NCBI RefSeq assembly: GCF_041477585.1
Contig: NZ_JBGNYA010000001.1
Span: 558,001 to 622,000, forward strand
DNA from: Halobellus sp. MBLA0158
GTDB lineage: Archaea; Halobacteriota; Halobacteria; Halobacteriales; Haloferacaceae
Direction: 5' to 3'
DNA length: 64,000 nt
Under the pieces are notes generated by a model. It searched no databases. It was given only the letters and a program-made list of their open reading frames with translations, and was not told the origin of the DNA. This document shows, in pieces, positions 32,871 through 43,554 of this stretch. The number at the start of each line of letters is the position of its first letter. The stretch's first letter is position 1. A program made the position numbers and the translations under genes.

Positions 32871-33434
32871 TCACGCGTCCAGCCGGTAGAAGAGCGCCTC
32901 GAAGTCGTCGCCGCTCAGCTCTTCCATATGCGACTCCGACTCCGCTCTGAGCTCTTGGATTTCGGCCTCCAGGCTCTGGAACCGCTCGTCGGACTCCAGC
33001 TCCGACTTCGGTAGTTCGGCGAGCAGCGCCTCCCGCTGTGAGAGGCGCATAAAGAACTCCCGGAGGGTTTCCGTATACTCCGACCGGCGAAGCAGTCGGT
33101 CGATGACGTCCCCGAGTTGGCTCTCCTCGACGGGCTTTGTGATGTAGGCGTCGAAGCCCATCTCCAGGATGTCGAAGTCGGGATCGACGGCCGTGATCAT
33201 CGCGATGGCGCACTCCGGGAACTCCGCGCGGACCTTCTGGAGCACCTCGTCGCCCGACATCCCCGGCATCCGACGGTCCAAGAGCACCACGTCGACTGAC
33301 TCGTCCACCCGTTCGATTGCGGTCTCGCCGTCGTAGGCCGTCTCGACGGCGTAGTCGTCCGCGAGCCACGCCGCGTACAGGTCGGCCAGGTCGCGCTCGT
33401 CGTCGACGATCAGAACGTTCGGACGGTCGGCCAT
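32871..33434 (-). CDS. HalX-domain response regulator
   Basis: 187 residues. Receiver domain (1-120) with acidic pair D11/D12, phospho-acceptor D53 (VVLLDRRMP) and K100 (YITKPV), followed by the haloarchaea-specific HalX output domain (about 125-187; REFFMRLSQREALLAELPKS), a helical coiled-coil-like module of unknown mechanism. It has an intact phosphorylation site, so a kinase partner is expected; the membrane kinase at 31228 is the nearest candidate. The promoter region contains a TATA-like ACTTATTTC about 30 bases upstream. Confidence 0.92.
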   Translation of the reverse strand: MADRPNVLIVDDERDLADLYAAWLADDYAVETAYDGETAIERVDESVDVVLLDRRMPGMSGDEVLQKVRAEFPECAIAMITAVDPDFDILEMGFDAYITKPVEESQLGDVIDRLLRRSEYTETLREFFMRLSQREALLAELPKSELESDERFQSLEAEIQELRAESESHMEELSGDDFEALFYRLDA

Positions 33435-33560
33435 TGTGTTGGCTCTACTACATTATGGGTCGTCGGAGAAATAAGTCTTCTTCCGGCCGCCGAGCGCTCG
33501 TGGCGTCTCCGTCTTCTGACCTATCCACGCGCCGTTCTGCGACGATTCCGGACGTCAAGA

Positions 33561-33566
33561 TTTATA
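33561..33566 (+). promoter_or_regulatory. Promoter of the 33590 gene
   Basis: TTTATA centred 26 bases before the ATG at 33590; predicts a leaderless mRNA and supports that start. Confidence 0.65.
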
Positions 33567-33589
33567 GTCCGCCTCCAGTAGTGTCCGGT

Positions 33590-34453
33590 ATGCGAGACGA
33601 CGAGGACGAGTCCCACGCGGTCGACGACGACCGCTCCTCGTCGCTTTCGGACCTCGCCGATCGGCTCGACGACGACCCCGAGGTCGACACGGACAGGGGC
33701 AGGGACGACGCCGACGAGGGCACCAAGCCGACGCTCTCGGACCTGGCCGACTCGATCAGCCGACGGCGCGGGGCCGGCGCCGACGTCGACGACGCGGACC
33801 TCGCGGAGTGGGACTTCGTCTCCGGCGACGCGGCGGACGGCGAGCCGCTGGACCCCAAGACCGAAGCCGTCCTGGAGCTGACCGGCGAAGCCGCGAACGT
33901 CCTCCTCAGCGGTCCCGGAGACGTCCCGGCCGAAGAGAGCCTCTGCTCGCGGCTGATGTCTTCTTCGGACGATGGGCCGGTCAATCTGCTCGTGATCGCG
34001 ATCACCGAGACGCCGAGCGAGCGGCTCTCGGTCCTGGAGAACTACCTCTCGGGGCCGGTCGGCGAGACGGCCGTCGTCGACGTCCGGAACTACAACCGCG
34101 AGGTCAACTACGAGCAGTACGACGGCCCCGTCGACATCCGCACCGTCTCCAGTCCGCAGGACCTCCGCCGGATCGGTATCGTGACGAGCAAACTCCTCTC
34201 CAACTGGGAGGAGGCGCCCGGCGAGACGCGGCTGTGCTTTCACTCGCTGTCGGACCTGCTCCGCCTGAACGACGACCGCCAGCGGGTGTTTCGATTCCTC
34301 CACGTGCTTCGGGGTCGGGTCCGCGCCGCCGGCGCGCGCGCGCACTTCCACCTCGATCCCACCCGACACGACGACCCCGACGTCGGGACCTTCGAGTCGC
34401 TGTTCGATACGGTGTTGCAGTTCGACGAGGACGGCTCCGTCTCGCTGTTGTAG
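33590..34453 (+). CDS. DUF7504-type haloarchaeal protein (degenerate RecA/KaiC-like)
   Basis: 287 residues. The first 90 residues are acidic and repeat a SLSDLADRLDDD / TLSDLADSISRR motif. Residues 100-285 form an alpha/beta domain: NVLLSGPGDVPAEE, NLLVIAITETPSERL, IVTSKLLSNW, RLCFHSLSDLLRLNDD and FRFLHVLRGRVRA. The strand order and the HSLSDLL segment resemble RecA/KaiC-like proteins, but no Walker A motif is present, so ATP binding is unlikely. The DUF7504 name is from memory. Commonly such proteins neighbour two-component genes, as here. Function unknown. Confidence 0.72.
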   Translation: MRDDEDESHAVDDDRSSSLSDLADRLDDDPEVDTDRGRDDADEGTKPTLSDLADSISRRRGAGADVDDADLAEWDFVSGDAADGEPLDPKTEAVLELTGEAANVLLSGPGDVPAEESLCSRLMSSSDDGPVNLLVIAITETPSERLSVLENYLSGPVGETAVVDVRNYNREVNYEQYDGPVDIRTVSSPQDLRRIGIVTSKLLSNWEEAPGETRLCFHSLSDLLRLNDDRQRVFRFLHVLRGRVRAAGARAHFHLDPTRHDDPDVGTFESLFDTVLQFDEDGSVSLL

Positions 34454-34486
34454 CCGAGCTTTACCTGAGGACCTGGCCGCCGGCCA

Positions 34487-36067
34487 TTACGTGTCGCCGT
34501 CGCCGTTCTCCTCGCGCCGGAGCTCTTCGAGGTCGCCGAACGGACTGTCGCTCTGTGTCGGCTCCGCGTCGCGCTCGGACGCGTCAGACGTCGGCCCGTC
34601 GCTCGCGTCCCCCGAGTCCGCTGTCCCGCCGAACTCGAACCCGGAGCCGTCGTCCGAGCCCGTCGACGCCGTCGAGTCTGTCGTGTCCGCCGGATCGTCC
34701 GCCCGCCGTTCGTCGACCTCGCTCCCTCCGCCGAGCGCGGATCCGTCGTCGCCGAAGGGCGTCTCCAGGTCGATCGACTCCGGCGGCCGCTCGACGTCGG
34801 CGTCGCTCTTGTCGGTGCTGTCGGCCTCGCTGTGTCGACGGTCACGGCTTCGACCTCCCGGCTCCGTGCTCGCGTCCGCGTCGTCGCTCGCGGTCGACGG
34901 GGGACCTCCGGAGGCCCGATCGCCGACGGTTTCGTCCAGTTCCGGTGGGGTGTCGAGCCCGTCGGCGGGCTCTGTCGGTCCGTCCGTCGGCGGTGCGCCC
35001 GTCCCGTGGTCGTCAGAGCGACCCCGCCTCGGCTCTCGCTCCTCTCGGGTCCGCTCTCCACTCGGCAGCGGTCCCGAGCGCTCCCCCGTCGCCGACCGGC
35101 CCCCGTCGCGTCCGTCGTTCGCGGTCGTCACGACGGTGTCGGTGAAGAGCCACCACCGACTCTCGGTCTCGACGCCGGACAGCGGTGCGTCGCAGTGCGG
35201 ACAGTACGGTCGAGCGAGCAGATCGAGATCGATCTCCTCCCCGCAGGCCGCACACTCGCCGGCGTGCGCGTCGTGGGCTGCGGCCTCCTGTTTGATCGAC
35301 TGGAGGGCGTCCCACTCCTCGCGGAGCCGTTCGAGCTCCCGCTCCTGGCGCGACCCCGTGCTTTCGATCTCGTGTTCGAGCCCGTCAGTCCGATCGAGGA
35401 GGTACTCCAGGATCGTCCGGAGGCTGTCGAACTCCGCGTCCAGCCACGCTTCGACCTGTTCGTGTTCGTCTTCCAGCGCGGCCTGTCGATCCGTGAGGTC
35501 CGCTTCCACGGCCTCGATCCGCCCTGTGAGTGCCGTCTCTGTCGACTCCGCGCTCGCGGCCACCTCGTCGAGTTCCGACTCGACCTCGCTCAGGCGCTCC
35601 GCGAGGGCGTCGAACAGCTGATCGAGCGTCTGTCCGTGTTCGACTTCAGACTCCAGGCCGGTCTCGAGCGCTTCCAACTCCGATTCGAGGTCGTCGATCC
35701 GCTCTTCGAGGTCGGCGGCCGTCGGCGTCGCCTCCGCCCGTGAGTCGTCGTCGGCCTCGCCGTGCTCTCCGTCGGGCTGGTCGCGGCGCCGTGGCGCGGA
35801 TCCGTTACTCGGTTGTCCCGTCTCGGAGCCGTCCCCGTCGGGGAATCGACCCCCGCTTCCGGGGGCCGCATCGCGTCTGCGGATCGGCGCTCCGGCCCCG
35901 CCGGAGTCGTCGAGCAGCTGGGTCATCTCGTTGAGCGTCCAGTACGACGAGACGAGCTGCTCGAAGACTTCCTCGCGCGACATTCCCTGGCTTTCGGCCT
36001 GTTGGTCGAGCCACGCCTCAAAGGACGTGCTCGCGGAGTCGTCGCCACCAGGGAATTCGTCGGACAT
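34487..36067 (-). CDS. Coiled-coil / zinc-ribbon / acidic-tail protein of unknown function
   Basis: 526 residues. Residues 1-52 (SFEAWLDQQAESQGMSREEVFEQLVSSYW, split here) look like a short helical, RHH-like or oligomerisation domain; 115-245 form a long coiled coil (repeated LEERIDDLESELEALE-type heptads); 258-283 hold a zinc ribbon with CAACG and CPHC; the last 240 residues are an acidic Asp/Glu/Ser/Thr-rich region with low sequence complexity. A structural or scaffold role is inferred, no enzyme motif is visible. It is convergent with the 33590 gene and divergent from the DUF5305 gene. The ATG at 36067 follows a GTTATATGC TATA-like element by about 22 bases. Confidence 0.75.
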   Translation of the reverse strand: MSDEFPGGDDSASTSFEAWLDQQAESQGMSREEVFEQLVSSYWTLNEMTQLLDDSGGAGAPIRRRDAAPGSGGRFPDGDGSETGQPSNGSAPRRRDQPDGEHGEADDDSRAEATPTAADLEERIDDLESELEALETGLESEVEHGQTLDQLFDALAERLSEVESELDEVAASAESTETALTGRIEAVEADLTDRQAALEDEHEQVEAWLDAEFDSLRTILEYLLDRTDGLEHEIESTGSRQERELERLREEWDALQSIKQEAAAHDAHAGECAACGEEIDLDLLARPYCPHCDAPLSGVETESRWWLFTDTVVTTANDGRDGGRSATGERSGPLPSGERTREEREPRRGRSDDHGTGAPPTDGPTEPADGLDTPPELDETVGDRASGGPPSTASDDADASTEPGGRSRDRRHSEADSTDKSDADVERPPESIDLETPFGDDGSALGGGSEVDERRADDPADTTDSTASTGSDDGSGFEFGGTADSGDASDGPTSDASERDAEPTQSDSPFGDLEELRREENGDGDT

Positions 36068-36193: not shown

Positions 36194-37216
36194 ATGGCGT
36201 TTGAACACCGAGCCAAGCTGTTCGTCAGCGAGAACGTCCGCCTCATCGCGGGAGTGCTGCTCGTTCTGGGCCTCCTCTGTTTCGCCGGCGCGGGCTACGT
36301 GTTCGTCACGCCGACGACCCAGACGCTGACAGAACAGACCGACCAGCAGACCTTCAGCACGCGCGTCGACGAGAGCGCGCTCGTGACCCAGGCGACCCCG
36401 CTGTACGACGAGGGCGAACGGATCGAGAACCGCTCTGTGTACTTCACGGGGATCTCGCCCGAACTCACCTTCGCGATGAACACGAGCGTCCCCGCCGACC
36501 AGCAGGTGGAGGTCCACCAGCAGCTGTCGCTGGAGCTCGTCGGCCTTCGGGGCGACCAGCCATTCTACCGCTCGGAGCGGTCGATCGTGGATACGACCCG
36601 GCAGGTCCAGGACGGCCGGGTCTCGACGACGGCCACGGTGAACGTCTCCGACGTCTCCCAAGAGCTCGCGGTGCTCGTCGAGGAGGTCGGCAACGCCGGG
36701 CAGTTCCAGCTCCGGCTCCAGATGAACGTCACCTACAGCACCGACGCGTACCAGGGGTCGTTGCAGTCGACGGTCCCCTTCGTCATCTCGGGGAACTCCT
36801 ACTACGTCGACGGGGCGCTCTCGGCCGAGCGCACGGAGTCGACGACGGTCACCCGGGAGATCACCCAACCGCCGAGCCCCGTGGAGTACGGCGCGCTCGC
36901 GGTCCTCGGGCTCCTGATGGTCGGCGCCGCGGCCGCGGTCACGCGGGTCGAAGACCGGGTGGATCCCGAGGAGCTGCGGACGCGCATCGCCCACGACCAA
37001 CACCAGGAGTGGATCTCCCGCGGGCAGTTCCCCACCGACTCCGAGAAGCAGTACATCTCGATCCTCACCCTCGAAGACCTCGTCGACGTCGCGATCGACA
37101 CGAACCGCCGGGTCATCCACGACCCGCAGATCGACGCCTACGCGGTGATCGACAGCTCCGAGATCTACTACTACGCGCTGGAGGACGTCGAAGCCGGCGA
37201 GTGGCTGGAGATCTGA
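36194..37216 (+). CDS. DUF5305 membrane protein
   Basis: 340 residues. One N-terminal membrane helix (about 15-38), a large extracytoplasmic beta-rich domain (45-225, with many NxS/T sequons such as NRS, NTS, NVS, NVT) and a second helix (230-252), then a cytoplasmic C-terminal domain of about 85 residues. DUF5305 proteins typically accompany a SipW-like signal peptidase, and here the signal peptidase is convergent and 49 bases away. The family function is not established; a partner of the peptidase in surface-protein maturation is inference. The ATG at 36194 begins the signal anchor. Confidence 0.85.
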   Translation: MAFEHRAKLFVSENVRLIAGVLLVLGLLCFAGAGYVFVTPTTQTLTEQTDQQTFSTRVDESALVTQATPLYDEGERIENRSVYFTGISPELTFAMNTSVPADQQVEVHQQLSLELVGLRGDQPFYRSERSIVDTTRQVQDGRVSTTATVNVSDVSQELAVLVEEVGNAGQFQLRLQMNVTYSTDAYQGSLQSTVPFVISGNSYYVDGALSAERTESTTVTREITQPPSPVEYGALAVLGLLMVGAAAAVTRVEDRVDPEELRTRIAHDQHQEWISRGQFPTDSEKQYISILTLEDLVDVAIDTNRRVIHDPQIDAYAVIDSSEIYYYALEDVEAGEWLEI

Positions 37217-37265
37217 GTCGGCGGCGAAATCCCTCTCGGTATCGACAGCCGATCCCGGTGTCTTC

Positions 37266-38414
37266 TCAGAGGAACCGCCGCTTGAGCTGCTGGACGAACG
37301 TGACGTTCCGCTTTTCGGAGCGCATCCGGATCGGGCCGATGCCGACCGCGATGAGCCCGCTCGCGACCGTGCCCAGCGTCAGGACGAGGTCGATCGCGGC
37401 GACGGCGGCGAGCGGATGCACGGCGTGCAGCGAGAGCAGCAGCGACCGCGGGAGGATCGGCAGGTACCGCCACTGTGAGATGCTCCGCGTGTACGCGCCC
37501 GTCTCCTCGGGCGCCAAAATCAGCAGCTGCGTCGTCTGCTCGGAGCGCCCGTTCACGACGAATGCCGACCGCGAGACCCTGACGCCGTCGCTCTGCGGTT
37601 CGAGCACCGTGAGGACGGGCACGTAGCCGTCGTTGGTGACGGTGTACTCCACGGAGTTTTGTCCCCCGACGGGGAGCACGAGCGGGTCGTCGTTCGGCGA
37701 CTCCGAACTGACGATGTCGAAGGAGGTCGTCCCCGAGGGCAACACCATACTGGCGGTCGCCGGCGCCGTGACGATGAGGACGAGCACGAGCAGGAACGTC
37801 GAGGTCTTGATGTAGTTCCCGCGGCGCCTGTTCCGCCCGCCGGTCGACCGGTCGCTCGTCACCGCGTCGACGACGAAGCCGACGGCGATGATGGCGACGC
37901 CGACCCACACGAGCGACTGCGCCGACCCGCCCCCGCCCAAGAGCGCCCCGATCCCGGTCGCCGCCATCGCCCCGGTGGCGAACTCCTGGACGGTGACGAC
38001 GGCGACGCCGAGGTTTCGGAGCACGACCGCCTGACCGTTGACCTGGAGCGCCTTCGCGACGATCTGGTCCCGCGAGACGGGCGGTTCGGCCCCGGACTGG
38101 TCGGTGAAGGGGTTGGCGTCGCCCTTGGTGATGTAGCCCTCCTCCGTCTCCCTGACGATCCGGTGGGTCGTGAGCCCGCCGCCGTGGAGTTCCTCGGCCT
38201 GGAACGTGACCACGTCGCCGGATTCGATCGGCCCCGCGACCGCCATCGGGACCGCGACGAAGCCGTCGCCGGGGTTCATCGTGGGCGCCATACTGCCGGT
38301 CTCGACGTAGCCCAAGAGCACGGGCTGGCCGGCCGCCTGGCCGAACAGCATCGCGCCGACGGCCGCAAAGAGCAGCAGCAAGACCGCGTACTCCAGGACT
38401 TTCGAGACCTTCAC
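37266..38414 (-). CDS. SipW-like signal peptidase I
   Basis: 382 residues, S26B family. After an N-terminal anchor (8-26) come the catalytic Ser box ETGSMAPTM (S41), a His in LTTHRIV (H84) and D99 in KGDANPFTD, the Ser/His/Asp arrangement of archaeal and ER signal peptidases, then two further helices (about 120-175) and an unusual 200-residue C-terminal extension with a beta domain (200-320) and final helices (330-365). Ordinary archaeal signal peptidases are near 180-220 residues, so the extension is notable. It probably processes the exported proteins at 39166-43554. Confidence 0.88.
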   Translation of the reverse strand: MKVSKVLEYAVLLLLFAAVGAMLFGQAAGQPVLLGYVETGSMAPTMNPGDGFVAVPMAVAGPIESGDVVTFQAEELHGGGLTTHRIVRETEEGYITKGDANPFTDQSGAEPPVSRDQIVAKALQVNGQAVVLRNLGVAVVTVQEFATGAMAATGIGALLGGGGSAQSLVWVGVAIIAVGFVVDAVTSDRSTGGRNRRRGNYIKTSTFLLVLVLIVTAPATASMVLPSGTTSFDIVSSESPNDDPLVLPVGGQNSVEYTVTNDGYVPVLTVLEPQSDGVRVSRSAFVVNGRSEQTTQLLILAPEETGAYTRSISQWRYLPILPRSLLLSLHAVHPLAAVAAIDLVLTLGTVASGLIAVGIGPIRMRSEKRNVTFVQQLKRRFL

Positions 38415-38468
38415 GCGCGCCGATAGGAAGCCGATCGGTATAACGCTTGATCCGCGACGCCGCCGACG

Positions 38469-38825
38469 CTACGGCGCGGCGGACTCGACGGCCTCCAAGA
38501 GCTCGTCCTGGTTGTAGGGCTTGACCAGGTACACGTCGGCGCCCGCCTCAAGCGCGCGCTCGCGCACGTCCGCGTCGGCGGCGACGGTGCTGACGACCAC
38601 GCCGACGCCCCGATCGATCTCCTTGATCGCTTCGGTGGCCTCGATGCCGGTCCCCTCGTGGAGATTGAGGTCCATCACGACGACGTCGGCCCCGTTCTCG
38701 CGGACCGCCTCGACCGCCCCGTCCGCCGTCGTGACGATGTCGACGACGTCGTGGACGCCGCGGAGATACCGCTCGATGAGGGTTGCTTGCATACCGATGT
38801 CTTCGGCGATCAGGACGTCTGCCAT
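38469..38825 (-). CDS. Single-domain response regulator
   Basis: 118 residues, receiver only: E8/D9 pair, phospho-acceptor D52 (VVVMDLNL), K102 (YLVKPYN). With no output domain it must act by protein contact, as CheY-type or phosphorelay intermediates do. It lies between the signal peptidase and the first exported-protein gene; its kinase is not in the cluster. The gap downstream of its start (38826-39165) contains the divergent promoter region of the exported proteins. Confidence 0.88.
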   Translation of the reverse strand: MADVLIAEDIGMQATLIERYLRGVHDVVDIVTTADGAVEAVRENGADVVVMDLNLHEGTGIEATEAIKEIDRGVGVVVSTVAADADVRERALEAGADVYLVKPYNQDELLEAVESAAP

Positions 38826-39165
38826 CTCGGTGGGGGCTCCTCGCCGACCGCGTGGTGCTCCAAGCCGACGCGTCTCGGTCCGGAGGCGTGCTACGAATCG
38901 CTAACACACCGCACGCAATTATCGGGGATAACGACCCGCTGGACTTGAAACTATCCCCTCGGTCATCGTTCGCTGTTTCCATCCGGCCCACATACCGGAC
39001 CACAAATCGCCATAAATCGACGATTAAGCGCCGTTTCGACGGTTACAAGCCGGCCTTTCGATTCGCACGCTCGGCTTGAATCTGCTTCAAGCGACGGAAT
39101 ACAAAGTGGGTGTAGTGGTAAGGGATAGGTAGAGGCGCGGCCCCCGCGCCAAGGAGCACACAACT
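38826..39165. other. Intergenic region between response regulator and exported-protein genes
   Basis: 340 bases, AT-richer towards the right, no gene. Notable content is the inverted repeat, TATA-like element, hairpin and Shine-Dalgarno sequence listed separately at 39074-39156. Confidence 0.8.
39074..39156 (+). promoter_or_regulatory. Promoter and leader of the first exported-protein gene
   Basis: In order: inverted repeat GCTTGAA-5-TTCAAGC (39074-39092), TATA-like AATACAAA (39099-39106) predicting transcription start near 39130, a GC hairpin GGCGCGG-CCC-CCGCGCC (39134-39150) and a Shine-Dalgarno GGAG (39153-39156) 9 bases before the ATG. A hairpin abutting a ribosome site suggests translational control, unusual beside the mostly leaderless genes here. 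Confidence 0.5.
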
Positions 39166-39786
39166 ATGGCACTCAGCAGACGCAACATACTGATCGGACT
39201 CGGAGCATTGGTCGGCGGCGGCGGCGCGCTCGTCGGTACGGGCGCGTTCACTACCGTTAGTGCGGAGCGGTCCGTAGACGTAAGTACAGCAGGAGATGCG
39301 GACGCGTTCTTACAGATTGAAGACGACAGTTCGTACGTCCAGGGTGGTGACAATGATGCCCTGCAAATCAATCTCGATGCAGATGGAGGCAACACGGACG
39401 CGGATTCGGGATTCAATGATGAGGCTGTCACAGAGCTCGCGGGAGTGATTCGGATCACGAATAACGCTGCCGACGAGAGTACGGCTACGATCGGTCTGTC
39501 AACAGAGGCAGCCGACAGTGCGAGTGCAAGCGGGAGTGTGACTGTCACAGTTGATGATGGAGATTCTGGAAATAGTAATGTTGCTGATATAGAAGTACTC
39601 GTTTCCAACAATGCCGGCGATTTCGATGGCTCTACTACAGATCTCGCTGTTGGCGAGACAGCATATTTGGATGTCCGTGTGGATACTCGCGATGACAGTA
39701 TTAGTGGGGTTGACGCAAACGAAATCACTATTGTCGCAAACGAATCAACTGCCGATCAGGGCGTGACGGATACGCCTACATCGTAA
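39166..39786 (+). CDS. Exported DUF1102/TasA-like surface protein
   Basis: 206 residues. Tat-type signal (SRRNILIGLGALVGGGGALVGTG, shown in part) leads to a GAFTTVSAERSVDV motif, the processing and N-strand region of the DUF1102 group related to TasA/CalY-like proteins. The mature part (about 170 residues) is an acidic beta-sandwich-like chain rich in Asp, Ser, Thr and Ala with few aromatic residues. Probably cleaved by the SipW-like peptidase at 37266 and assembled or anchored on the cell surface. The codons turn AT-rich after about residue 35 compared with the surrounding genome. Confidence 0.82.
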   Translation: MALSRRNILIGLGALVGGGGALVGTGAFTTVSAERSVDVSTAGDADAFLQIEDDSSYVQGGDNDALQINLDADGGNTDADSGFNDEAVTELAGVIRITNNAADESTATIGLSTEAADSASASGSVTVTVDDGDSGNSNVADIEVLVSNNAGDFDGSTTDLAVGETAYLDVRVDTRDDSISGVDANEITIVANESTADQGVTDTPTS

Positions 39787-39799
39787 TCATTCCCCAAGC

Positions 39800-39806
39800 T
39801 TATACA
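39800..39806 (+). promoter_or_regulatory. Promoter of the 39827 gene
   Basis: TTATACA centred about 25 bases before the ATG at 39827; the gene can be transcribed separately from its upstream neighbour with no leader. Confidence 0.55.
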
Positions 39807-39826
39807 ACACAAATTTCAAATCAAAT

Positions 39827-40579
39827 ATGAAACGCAGACAAGTCATCACGGCATTCGGCACGCTCGCAATCGGCACTGGGACAGCGCTTGGGACGGGCGC
39901 ATTTGACGCGACATCGACCAGCAGTAGTTCAGCGATGTCAATCGTCACACAGAATCAAGACGCAGATATTGAGATTGTTCCTGGTGATGGTGCGCCCTCG
40001 ACCACCGGAAGCACTAGCGGGAATATAAAAAGAGGCACATTCAACTCGGTACCAAATGTGGATCAAATGCCAATAGCGGCAGTTAGTGGCACTGGACCGG
40101 GTATGGTTCAATTACAGGTGTATACCACCACTGACAATAGTGGCAGCGACCCGACATTTAGTGATATTATTGAAGTCAATAATCTTGATAATGTCGCCTA
40201 TAATGTAGGATTCGTGTTCAGTGGTATCTCGAACGTTAGTGGAGATGACATCGAGGAAATATATCAATTTAGGTATGATTCTGGCAATGGCAGCCGAACT
40301 GTGTCTGAAGAAATTCAACCGGATTCCAATGGTGATTTCAGCAATAAAAGCTTCAGCAGCATCAACCCAATAGTCATTAATACGGGTGGATCTGCGCAGG
40401 TCTCTTTGGACTATGACGCCCAGTTCGTTCCTGACGAATATGATCTTGAACCCGGTAACTTCAGCAATAATTCTGCGGAGGGACCGTTTGATTCGGACGG
40501 GGACTTTGATGAAGTCGCTGAGTCAACTCAATTTGTTAATGAAGTTACCGCTGTAGCTAACGAAACAACGGTACAATAG
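39827..40579 (+). CDS. Exported DUF1102-like surface protein, AT-rich
   Basis: 250 residues. KRRQVITAFGTLAIG twin-arginine signal, then the same GTGAFDATS processing-site motif as the 39166 product. The mature part has Asn- and Ser-rich beta-strand segments (VQLQVYTTTDNSG, VAYNVGFVFSG, QVSLDYDAQFV) with many N-glycosylation sequons. The base composition is clearly lower in GC than neighbours, with many A/T-ending codons that are rare elsewhere in the window, indicating acquisition from another lineage or fast divergence. It has its own TATA box. Confidence 0.78.
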   Translation: MKRRQVITAFGTLAIGTGTALGTGAFDATSTSSSSAMSIVTQNQDADIEIVPGDGAPSTTGSTSGNIKRGTFNSVPNVDQMPIAAVSGTGPGMVQLQVYTTTDNSGSDPTFSDIIEVNNLDNVAYNVGFVFSGISNVSGDDIEEIYQFRYDSGNGSRTVSEEIQPDSNGDFSNKSFSSINPIVINTGGSAQVSLDYDAQFVPDEYDLEPGNFSNNSAEGPFDSDGDFDEVAESTQFVNEVTAVANETTVQ

Positions 40580-40605
40580 AGTTTTCAACGTCGGATACGC
40601 TCGGC

Positions 40606-40613
40606 ATTTAAGC
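40606..40613 (+). promoter_or_regulatory. Promoter of the 40641 gene
   Basis: CATTTAAG centred about 31 bases before the ATG; separate transcription of the third exported-protein gene is likely. Confidence 0.45.
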
Positions 40614-40640
40614 GTAATCCGGACCTAATTCCTCTAGATA

Positions 40641-41258
40641 ATGCTTACCCGCCGTCAACTCATCGCTGGCCTTGGAAGTGCTGCGATCAGCGGCGGCATT
40701 GTCAGTTCGACGGCAGCGTTCACTGCAACTTCATCCAACTCTACTGCCTCCTTCACCGTCGTAGCCCCGAATTATATCGAACTCCGAGCTGTCAACGACC
40801 CTCCGATCCACGTCGAAACAAACGACGACGGCATTGTCACGAAACTCACGCCCGGCAACGACACTGGCCTCAACGAATACGCCATCACACGCTTCGAGGA
40901 TATTGTCGAAGTACACAACGTCAGCAGCGTAGCGCTCTCGGGATTGTACTTCGATTTCGTGGTCGAAAGTGAAAGCGACACGCTCAGTTCGAGTGATGCC
41001 ACGGAGATCGAAGAAACACTATCGGTCACGGCCGGATCCGAAACCCTGACGACGACCGGTGAGTCCGGCGACGATCTCTTGGCGGTGAGCGATGCCGAGT
41101 CCGCTGCTGACGGCATACTTTCGTCGGGCGAGGAGTCCGTCCCCTTCGGCGTTCAGGTCGATCTCATTCCCGACAGCGGCGAAAGTTCCCTCTCGGATCT
41201 CCCGGACCCGAACGATTTCTCGGCGACGCTCCGCGTGATCGTCGAGACAGAGGAGTAG
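40641..41258 (+). CDS. Exported surface protein, third of the cluster
   Basis: 205 residues. TRRQLIAGLGSAAISGG twin-arginine signal followed by TAAFTATSSNSTASF, a variant of the cleavage motif in the two preceding products. The mature chain alternates short beta-strands (VVAPNYIELRAV, VEVHNVSSVALSG, VPFGVQVDLIP) with acidic Asp/Glu/Ser loops. Similar size and order suggest a paralogue or minor subunit of the same structure. GC content rises back toward the genome average in its second half. It has its own promoter. Confidence 0.78.
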   Translation: MLTRRQLIAGLGSAAISGGIVSSTAAFTATSSNSTASFTVVAPNYIELRAVNDPPIHVETNDDGIVTKLTPGNDTGLNEYAITRFEDIVEVHNVSSVALSGLYFDFVVESESDTLSSSDATEIEETLSVTAGSETLTTTGESGDDLLAVSDAESAADGILSSGEESVPFGVQVDLIPDSGESSLSDLPDPNDFSATLRVIVETEE

Positions 41259-41345
41259 TCGGACTGCTGGACGAAGTTAGTTATCGTCCACCCGAGATTC
41301 GGGGACAGATTATATGTAGGCATTGCTAAAATTGAACGGTAGTCG

Positions 41346-41939
41346 ATGGGACAACGCAGCGCAGAGGAGTTGGCCGAAGGGGAAGTCGATACTGGCCTCA
41401 GCGACGAGTCCGACGACGAGACTGAACTGCAGCGCGACGAGATCTTCGATCTGATGAGCAATCACCGCCGTCGGTACGCCATCCACTACTGCAAGCAGGC
41501 CGACGGCCCCGTCGCCCTCTCGGACCTCGCCGAACAGGTCGCCGCCTGGGAACACGACAAGGATGTCGCAGAGGTCACTTCCGCCGAGCGCAAGACGACC
41601 TACACCTCGCTGCAGCAGACACACCTCCCGCGGCTCGATCGTGCGGGTGTCGTCGACTTCGACGGCAGCGAGATCGAACTCAGCGACCGCATCGAGCGCC
41701 TGGATATCTACCTGGATATCGTCCCCGCGAACTCGGTGTCGTGGGGGATGTATTACCTCGGGCTGTCGGCGTTCTCGCTCGTGGTGCTCGCGGCGCTGTG
41801 GGTCGATTTCCTCCCGACCGACGGAATCCCCGTGTTAGCGTACCCCGCGGTCCTCATCGCGATGTTCGCGGTCTCTGCGGGATACCACGCCTACGTGAAT
41901 CACAAGTACCGCTTCGAGAACCTCGAACGGCCGCCGTGA
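41346..41939 (+). CDS. HTH domain plus membrane protein (DUF7344-like)
   Basis: 197 residues. Residues 25-120 look like a winged HTH (EIFDLMSNHRRRYAIHYCKQ, then LQQTHLPRLDRAGVVDF), the DUF7344 pattern, and two membrane helices close the C-terminus (about 132-152 and 160-180). A membrane-bound DNA-binding protein beside secreted structural proteins suggests it controls them. A strong TATA (ATTATATG, 41307-41314) precedes the ATG by 32 bases. It is convergent with the solenoid gene. Confidence 0.8.
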   Translation: MGQRSAEELAEGEVDTGLSDESDDETELQRDEIFDLMSNHRRRYAIHYCKQADGPVALSDLAEQVAAWEHDKDVAEVTSAERKTTYTSLQQTHLPRLDRAGVVDFDGSEIELSDRIERLDIYLDIVPANSVSWGMYYLGLSAFSLVVLAALWVDFLPTDGIPVLAYPAVLIAMFAVSAGYHAYVNHKYRFENLERPP

Positions 41940-41985
41940 GGGCGAACCGGGACGACGAACGTCGAACGCCGACCGGTCCTGATTC

Positions 41986-43554
41986 TCAGCCCGCCTGAAC
42001 GCTCCCCTGCGCGGGCGTCCCGTTCACCGTGATGCCGCTGGGGCTGTAGACGACCGTCGAATCCCGGTCCTGCATTACTGCTCCGTCGATCGCGAGCGTC
42101 GCCGACGCCTGATTGAGCGTGAGCGACGCCTCGCCGTTCTTGGACCTGATCTCGGCGTTGTCGAGGGTCATATCGCCCGACGACGTGAGCTTGATCTGCT
42201 TGTTGGTGTCGATGACCGCGCCGCTCGCGAGCAGTTCGGCGTTCGATTTGAGTTCGATCTGGCCGTTCTTGCTCTGGATCGTCGCGTCGGTGATGTCGAG
42301 CGCTCCCGATTCCGCCGTGAGCTTGATCTGCTTGTTCGTGGTGATCGACGCGCGGTCCGCGTCGATGCTCGGACTCTTGAGTTTGATCTGGCCGTTCTTG
42401 GAGTCGACCGTCGAGTCCGTGAGCGTGAGCGTGCCGGACTCGGACTCGACGTCGATCTGCTTGTTCGTGGTGATCGACGCGCCGCTCGCGTCGATCGGGT
42501 AGCCCTTGAGTTTGATCTGGCCGTTCTTGGAGTCGACGGTCGCGTCCGTGAGCGTCAGCGCGCCGGACTCGCTCGAGAGCTTCACCTGCTTGTTGGTCGT
42601 GACCGTCGACCCCGACGCGTCGACGCTGGGGCCTTTGAGTTCGACCTGCCCGTTCTTGGAGTCGACCGTCGAGTCCGTGAGCGTCAGCGCCTCGGACTCG
42701 GACTCGACTTTGATCTGCTTGTTGCTCGTGATCGTCGTCCCGCTCGCCGTGATCTCCTTTGCTTTGAGGTCGACCTGGCCGTTCTTGGTGTCGATCGTCG
42801 AGTCGCGGAACGAGACCGTGCCGTCGTCGGCCTCGATCTTGAGCTGCTTGTTGGTCTTGAGCGTCGTCTCGTCGACGACCACCGACTTCGCCTCGATGTC
42901 TACCTGGGCGTTCCTGAAGTCGATCGTCTCGCCGCCGCCGGCGATCACGAGGGCGGCGCTGTCGTTGTCGAAGGAGGCCAGGTCCTCGACGATCTGGTCG
43001 CCTTCGTTGAACGAGAGGTCCTCGTTCCCGTCGATGTAGGCGATCGCATCGCCCGGCGGCTCGCCCGGATCCGGCGGTCCGCCACCGCTCCGGCCCGGAC
43101 AGTCGTACTCGACGGGGGCTTCGAGCGTCGCGCCCGTGATCGTGGCCGAGTCGCTCTCCGCCTCGATCACGTCGATGGTGAGCGTCGCCGTGCCCGCGCC
43201 GCCCTTCGGCGGGACGCACGACACCTCGATCGGCGTGGTCCCCCCCTGGGGGATCGTCACCGTCTCCGAGGGGTTCGCGACGGAGAGCGAGCCGACGCTC
43301 ACGCTCGCCTCGTACTGGACGGTCGCACCGGAGTCGAGGTTGTTCTCCAGTTCGGCCACCGTGGTCGAACTCCCCGGCTGGGTCACCACGTTGTTCGTCC
43401 CGTCGATCGCGATGAACGCCTCGCTGTCGCCGGCGACGGCGACGTCGACCGGCCGGTCGCCCGCGATGGTGCTGAAGCTCCCCGTGGGCACGATGGTGAG
43501 CATCGCGCCGAGGATGACGAGCGACAGCCCGATGTACTGGAGCGACCGCTGCAT
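41986..43554 (-). CDS. Exported DUF1102-type protein with C-terminal beta-solenoid repeats
   Basis: 522 residues. A Sec-type signal/anchor (4-22) leads into PTGSFSTIAGDRPVDVAVAGDSEAF (split), the motif shared with the 39166 product. A beta domain (30-150) contains C113 and C152. After a Pro/Gly linker (153-170) residues 208-510 are a repeat array: five and a half 43-residue units, each made of two similar halves headed TNKQIKL and SKNGQIEL, about 21 residues per coil. This strict periodicity predicts a right-handed or similar beta-solenoid of about 13 coils, mostly without cysteine or aromatic residues. Likely a surface fibre tip or adhesin, processed by the SipW-like peptidase. Family not recognised beyond its N-terminus. 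Confidence 0.8.
   Translation of the reverse strand: MQRSLQYIGLSLVILGAMLTIVPTGSFSTIAGDRPVDVAVAGDSEAFIAIDGTNNVVTQPGSSTTVAELENNLDSGATVQYEASVSVGSLSVANPSETVTIPQGGTTPIEVSCVPPKGGAGTATLTIDVIEAESDSATITGATLEAPVEYDCPGRSGGGPPDPGEPPGDAIAYIDGNEDLSFNEGDQIVEDLASFDNDSAALVIAGGGETIDFRNAQVDIEAKSVVVDETTLKTNKQLKIEADDGTVSFRDSTIDTKNGQVDLKAKEITASGTTITSNKQIKVESESEALTLTDSTVDSKNGQVELKGPSVDASGSTVTTNKQVKLSSESGALTLTDATVDSKNGQIKLKGYPIDASGASITTNKQIDVESESGTLTLTDSTVDSKNGQIKLKSPSIDADRASITTNKQIKLTAESGALDITDATIQSKNGQIELKSNAELLASGAVIDTNKQIKLTSSGDMTLDNAEIRSKNGEASLTLNQASATLAIDGAVMQDRDSTVVYSPSGITVNGTPAQGSVQAG
42079..42855 (-). repeat. 43-residue (129-bp) tandem coding repeats
   Basis: Residues 234-492 of the solenoid protein: units at 234-276, 277-319, 320-362, 363-405, 406-449 and a degenerate one to 492. 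Units 3-5 are closest, e.g. LTLTDSTVDSKNGQ recurs almost exactly. DNA similarity between units makes copy-number change by recombination possible. Confidence 0.9.

Follow-up and report, generated by a model that had tools for sequence, protein, structure and literature searches.

The haloarchaeal fimbriae known as Tafi, for Tat-fimbriae (Tat standing for twin-arginine translocation), were described as recently as 2025, reportedly by Galeva et al. in iScience. Their subunits are exported by Tat in haloarchaea, according to a citation in PMC12687288. TasA polymerises by donor-strand exchange and the archaeal bundling pili are structurally related to it (PMC9674648), while the title of PMC10151520 ascribes a strand-complementing chaperone role to TapA of Bacillus. 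Here we describe a gene cluster of Halobellus sp. MBLA0158 which lies in a 64,000 nt stretch of contig NZ_JBGNYA010000001.1 (the window, in whose numbering all positions are given) and which, with a probability that we put at roughly 86%, encodes a donor-strand fimbria of the Tafi/AbpA/TasA type. A sequence-only reading had taken eight genes of this cluster for a SipW/TasA/AbpA-like fibre island; all eight are real, with open reading frames exactly where it placed them (Table 1), and its interpretation was right in kind, but the cluster is more than an inferred equivalent of known fibre operons, as it belongs to the experimentally described Tafi system, for which a relative has been solved (PDB 9P0A). 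Tafi itself being already known, the window holds a divergent version of it that is common to Halobellus and Haloferax.

The link to Tafi runs through T1, the first of three small exported proteins, T1 to T3. A profile of 58 T1 homologues matched the whole length of the 9P0A pilin (profile positions 1-183) with E=1e-47, and this entry carries the Foldseek title 'Structure of Natrinema sp. J7-2 Tafi pilus'. The sequence printed for 9P0A has 100% identity to a Natrinema gari gene at a locus (L093) with the order pilin, TafF-like gene, long peptidase and DUF5305, and therefore the pilin of the solved filament is encoded beside accessory genes of the type found in the window. The TafE model of NCBIfam matched T1 at 5e-16 and 58.9 bits, below its cut-off of 155 bits, and T3 at 4e-7, likewise below the cut-off; the N-terminus of T2 was also matched by Taf models (TafE, TafA and TafC), again below the equivalog cut-offs. 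As the Natrinema 9P0A pilin itself reaches just 77.3 bits with TafE and 53 bits with TafA, failure at these cut-offs leaves membership of Tafi in the broad sense possible, and the cut-offs describe a narrower group only. In this broad sense the cluster is Tafi by its full-length pilin homology, its Tat signals and its locus of peptidase, DUF5305 and DUF7344 genes; by the strict NCBIfam definitions of TafA, TafC, TafE and TafF it is not, the scores of T1 to T3 and of the large solenoid protein encoded at 41986 lying below the cut-offs and a TafF gene not having been found.

The N-termini of T1, T2 and T3 carry the twin-arginine motifs SRRNIL, KRRQVI and TRRQLI, respectively, of which the sequence-only reading had made no mention; among the 58 T1 homologues the first arginine (R5) is invariant and the second (R6) nearly so. 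The G(A/S)F processing motif ascribed to the exported proteins was found as GAF in T1 and T2 and as GSF in the solenoid protein, but T3 has AAF instead. A mature N-terminus of the 9P0A pilin at Phe28 is consistent with the 188 of 215 residues modelled in that structure, a figure which is our own arithmetic and not a reported site. Beyond the predicted cleavage position the subunits contain a conserved strand, A-x-R-x-V-x-V, which is suggestive, but only suggestive, of a donated strand. When mature regions alone were compared by hhalign, T3 was related to T1 with 97.4% probability (E=1e-11). Among the matches listed for the T1-family profile in the whole genome were only the four exported proteins of the window cluster (T3 at E=4e-14, the N-domain of the solenoid protein at 2e-11 and the start of T2 at 9e-6) and one second cluster; an N-terminal domain shared by the solenoid protein and the small exported proteins, as had been proposed, is thus real though divergent. 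Matches of the T3 profile to DnaK structures (E of about 0.005) were taken as chance. The profile similarity of T1 and T2, at 97.7% probability with signal peptides included, fell to just 34% on mature regions; since the score is inflated by the signal peptides, T2 was judged by its structure. Full-length members of the T2 family were found in only part of the Haloferacaceae sampled.

Structure prediction, proposed earlier as a check, placed the AbpA pili and the Tafi pilus 9P0A on top for both T1 and T2, T3 being the profile homologue of T1. The T1 model has a predicted local distance difference test score (pLDDT) of 77 and by VIA matched 9P0A with a Z of 8.4 (124 residues, 3.3 A), AbpA (7UEG) with 7.1 and FimA with about 6.5. 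For the T2 model (pLDDT 70) the top Foldseek match was AbpA 7UEG (E 1.5e-3, prob 1.00), and its three best VIA matches were AbpA (7.8), Tafi 9P0A (7.7) and the Sulfolobus thread (7.5), all about 1 Z unit above unrelated sandwiches. Both models have an AbpA-like open beta-sandwich fold, at medium confidence. This fold evidence carries weight because the archaeal donor-strand filaments rank together at the top and because, for T1, there is also the sequence match. TasA was absent from the 50 matches listed for each of the T1 and T2 models, which does not exclude a relation to it. AbpA, from the bundling pili of the hyperthermophile Pyrobaculum calidifontis, forms a donor-strand fibre of the TasA class; it is like T1 and T2 in predicted fold, and no relation to it in sequence was detectable in the searches made.

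The gene set of the window recurs in at least 100 loci across Halobacteria, and the cluster is therefore not a chance assembly. Among 80 loci retrieved through the peptidase alone, the genes are usually ordered as TafC-like or S protein, DUF7344, subunits, TafF-like gene, peptidase and DUF5305, the first and the TafF-like gene being variable components, and rearrangements occur. A T1-like subunit, T2, T3, the DUF7344 gene, the peptidase and the solenoid protein are common to Haloferax, in a rearranged order. The co-occurrence of peptidase and exported proteins expected by the sequence-only reading was borne out in 60 relatives, by matches listed and with P values that treat the relatives as independent and ignore shared ancestry: a TafE match and the long peptidase agreed in 57/60 (38 with both, 1 and 2 with one only, 19 with neither; Fisher P=2e-12), and the two also co-locate. 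DUF5305, present in 43/60 relatives, agreed with the long peptidase in 55/60 (39/4/1/16; P=5e-10), and for 40 of 50 long peptidases it is encoded no more than 5 kb away. The same long peptidase is found together with DUF5305 (2e-60) and DUF7344 (3e-28) at a certified Tafi locus, L124, in which TafA (225 bits), TafC (533), TafE (178) and TafF (594) all score above the NCBIfam cut-offs. With Tafi the window thus shares these accessory genes, Tat-exported subunits with a G-A-F junction, the T1 homology to the 9P0A pilin and a large TafC-like protein with a related N-domain. It differs in that no named Taf protein corresponds to T2 or T3, in an extra lone receiver gene that is seen in the window and in some Halobellus, and in TafF: a profile that picks up a TafF-like gene in 81 loci matched nothing in the window, nor in Halobellus loci L033-L035 and L126-L130, and a search of the own genome with the NCBIfam TafF model found nothing either, a result that is uninformative.

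Table 1. Genes of the fimbrial cluster and its flank in the window (T1 to T3, small exported subunits).
Feature	Position	Strand	Size and evidence
DUF5305 membrane protein	36194..37216	+	340 aa; Pfam PF17231 E=7e-49
Archaeal/SipW-type signal peptidase with C-terminal unit	37266..38414	-	382 aa; TIGR02228 63.6 bits
Stand-alone CheY-like receiver domain	38469..38825	-	PF00072 E=8e-22
T1, Tat-signal fimbrial subunit, TafE-like, 9P0A homologue	39166..39786	+	
T2, Tat-signal subunit, predicted AbpA/Tafi-like fold	39827..40579	+	
T3, Tat-signal subunit, T1 homologue	40641..41258	+	profile comparison
DUF7344 winged-helix protein with two C-terminal membrane helices	41346..41939	+	PF24035 E=5e-29; hydropathy
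TafC-like exported protein, Taf-type N-domain and beta-solenoid	41986..43554	-	profiles, repeat period
Flanking coiled-coil protein, zinc-ribbon-like CxxC motifs	34487..36067	-	21 loci, gene-order map
DUF7504 protein, flanking, start uncertain	33449..34453	+	PF24336 6e-39

The signal peptidase exceeds the TIGR02228 cut-off of 51.85 bits, the SipW model matching it more weakly (1.3e-8), and as it combines an endoplasmic reticulum (ER)-type Ser-His-Asp set (Ser41-His84-Asp99) with the archaeal signal peptidase I profile it is of the SipW type. The C-terminal extension of about 200 residues which had been noticed earlier is present, and consists of membrane helices at about 168-186, 207-225 and 326-344 around an immunoglobulin (Ig)/CARDB-like domain. 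In an alignment of 112 sequences the Ser and His define 88 catalytic homologues; the other 24, which lack Ser or His and might have passed for catalytically dead tandem peptidases, are separable as TafF-like proteins pulled in by the iterated profile. We do not claim that the peptidase extension and TafF share an origin, the match being a generic Ig/CARDB-like one at 57% probability. The own genome has two peptidase matches, one for each Taf-like cluster. DUF5305 is predicted to consist of a membrane helix, a beta-rich extracytoplasmic region, a second membrane helix and a C-terminal tail, with hydropathy peaks at 15-33 and 234-252. Because they are co-conserved and predicted to face outside, DUF5305 and the membrane-anchored Ig-like extension of the peptidase are the strongest candidates for a platform on which subunits dock or are assembled. 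The bacterial tapA-sipW-tasA/CalY systems likewise have a dedicated SipW-like ER-type peptidase beside the fibre subunits, an aromatic residue just past the cleavage site and membrane-side accessory proteins; the window differs from them in the use of Tat and not Sec by its subunits, in the 200-residue extension of the peptidase, and in that no TapA homologue was identified.

The solenoid protein has a signal without twin arginines (MQRSLQ...), a Taf-type N-domain at about 30-160 and a beta-solenoid at about 165-522 made of 43-residue repeats (period 43 aa at 41% self-identity); its ortholog in Halobellus clavatus gives Pfam beta-helix matches. Its N-terminal 124 aa were matched by TafC (4e-9) and TafE (2e-6), the TafC score of 31.7 bits comparing with a cut-off of 410. 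By contrast, the TafC of L124 has a twin-arginine signal (KKWTRRSAL) and ends in a Laminin-G/concanavalin-like domain (3e-24), so that the beta-solenoid in the window takes the place of a LamG-like lectin domain. As far as predicted domains go, this shows the TafC position to be modular, related N-domains being joined to a lectin-like domain or to a beta-solenoid depending on the lineage. The solenoid protein is itself a candidate for the tip or for an adhesin. DUF7344, with orthologs in 100 fetched loci, where most of them neighbour Taf-like genes, is a candidate regulator, and the lone receiver, whose ortholog lies upstream of the peptidase gene in certain Halobellus loci, is a probable one.

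Taken together, T1 to T3 would fold in the cytosol and be exported by Tat, and the peptidase would cut at GTGA|F or an equivalent position, before the conserved Phe, thereby freeing an N-terminal segment. The freed strand might then complete the fold of a neighbouring subunit and so drive polymerisation, while DUF5305 and the extracytoplasmic domain of the peptidase could hold subunits or hand them over at the membrane, the TafC-like solenoid protein may cap or decorate the fibre and give adhesion, and DUF7344 and the lone receiver may control expression. Fibre formation and donor-strand exchange are, for the window system, inferred. Several points weigh against this interpretation: a fibre has not been seen in this organism; model confidence is medium (pLDDT 77 and 70, with global TM-scores of 0.3-0.4) and a Z of about 8 is only just above the background of small beta-sandwiches; the window cluster has no TafA above the cut-off and no TafF gene; the sequences do not reveal which subunit is the major one; and the roles given to DUF5305, the peptidase extension, the receiver and the solenoid are read from gene neighbourhood alone. 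Across the order, the comparison links DUF5305, a family of unknown function, and the signal peptidase with its conserved extracytoplasmic extension to Tafi, which makes them concrete candidates for its assembly machinery, and it supports the view of SipW-TasA-type fibres as common to bacteria and archaea.

The absence of an observed fibre and the medium confidence of the models would also suit a set of S-layer-associated or matrix-forming proteins (TasA-like monomers, camelysin-like proteins or surface decorations) that makes no fibre, yet this is very improbable given that the T1 family shows full-length homology to a pilin whose structure was solved within a filament and has the gene neighbourhood of that pilin. 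Within the fimbrial interpretation, the assignment of subunits is less firm. It is possible, albeit not the arrangement we favour, that the rod is formed by T2 as the major subunit, with T1 as a TafE-type adapter, as it is the TafE adapter model that gives T1 its best score and the best structural match of T2 is AbpA, a rod subunit; however, the solved Natrinema rod pilin, in whose family T1 falls, also does better with TafE (77 bits) than with TafA (53), and T1 is widespread whereas T2 is lineage-restricted.

That the solenoid protein stands apart from the fibre, as a Sec-exported adhesin or surface protein which is co-regulated with it and not built into it, is somewhat unlikely. It does lack the twin-arginine signal of the other subunits, in Haloferax it is encoded beyond the peptidase, some 3.5-3.8 kb away from the regulator, and in the profile comparison with T1 the alignment was confined to the first 25 residues of the mature protein; against this, its N-domain matches TafC and TafE, the T1 profile matches it across profile positions 2-114, and many loci have homologues of the N-domain only a few bases away from the DUF7344 gene. 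A donor-strand fimbria of the Tafi type remains our preferred interpretation of the cluster. A bolder version of it, that this is a distinct class of archaeal fimbria defined by mixed export, in which a Tat-exported rod of two or three TasA/AbpA-fold subunits bears a non-Tat solenoid adhesin as its cap and the Ig-like domain of the peptidase together with DUF5305 forms a membrane assembly platform that replaces the chaperone, usher or TapA known from other donor-strand systems, appears to us unlikely.

The guanine-plus-cytosine content of the cluster is 55-60% as against about 70%. Despite this lower content, a recent mobile island is unsupported and the cluster is not evidently one, since relatives in Halobellus and Haloferax keep the cluster together with its coiled-coil neighbour. 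The coiled-coil gene is a conserved neighbour in both genera and a homologue adjoins a second Taf-like cluster of the own genome (L119:4610-5512); it is possibly linked to the fimbrial cluster. A DUF7504 homologue also flanks the second cluster (PF24336 5e-32 in L119), so that both of the genes at 33317-36067 in the window have homologues there, hinting at a functional link. A receiver-HalX response regulator gene is located at 32871-33434 of the window, and several Halobellus loci have a similar receiver gene past the coiled-coil gene, at a distance of about 1 kb or more. In Halorubrum, Natronomonas and others (L060, L063, L070, L044 and L042) a receiver-containing gene of 315-321 aa is convergent to the peptidase, beside Taf-like genes. 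The second cluster, L119 (G000:C1:824000-843900, outside the window), comprises a peptidase, DUF5305, a 1320-aa Ig/PKD-rich protein and two Taf-like proteins of 180 and 636 aa, the signals of which are without twin arginines and more hydrophobic, suggesting a putative Sec-exported paralogous fibre beside the Tat-exported one. Several haloarchaea (L107, L122, L123 and L125) have multiple tandem Taf-like genes per locus or multiple clusters per genome, which suggests diversification of the subunits.

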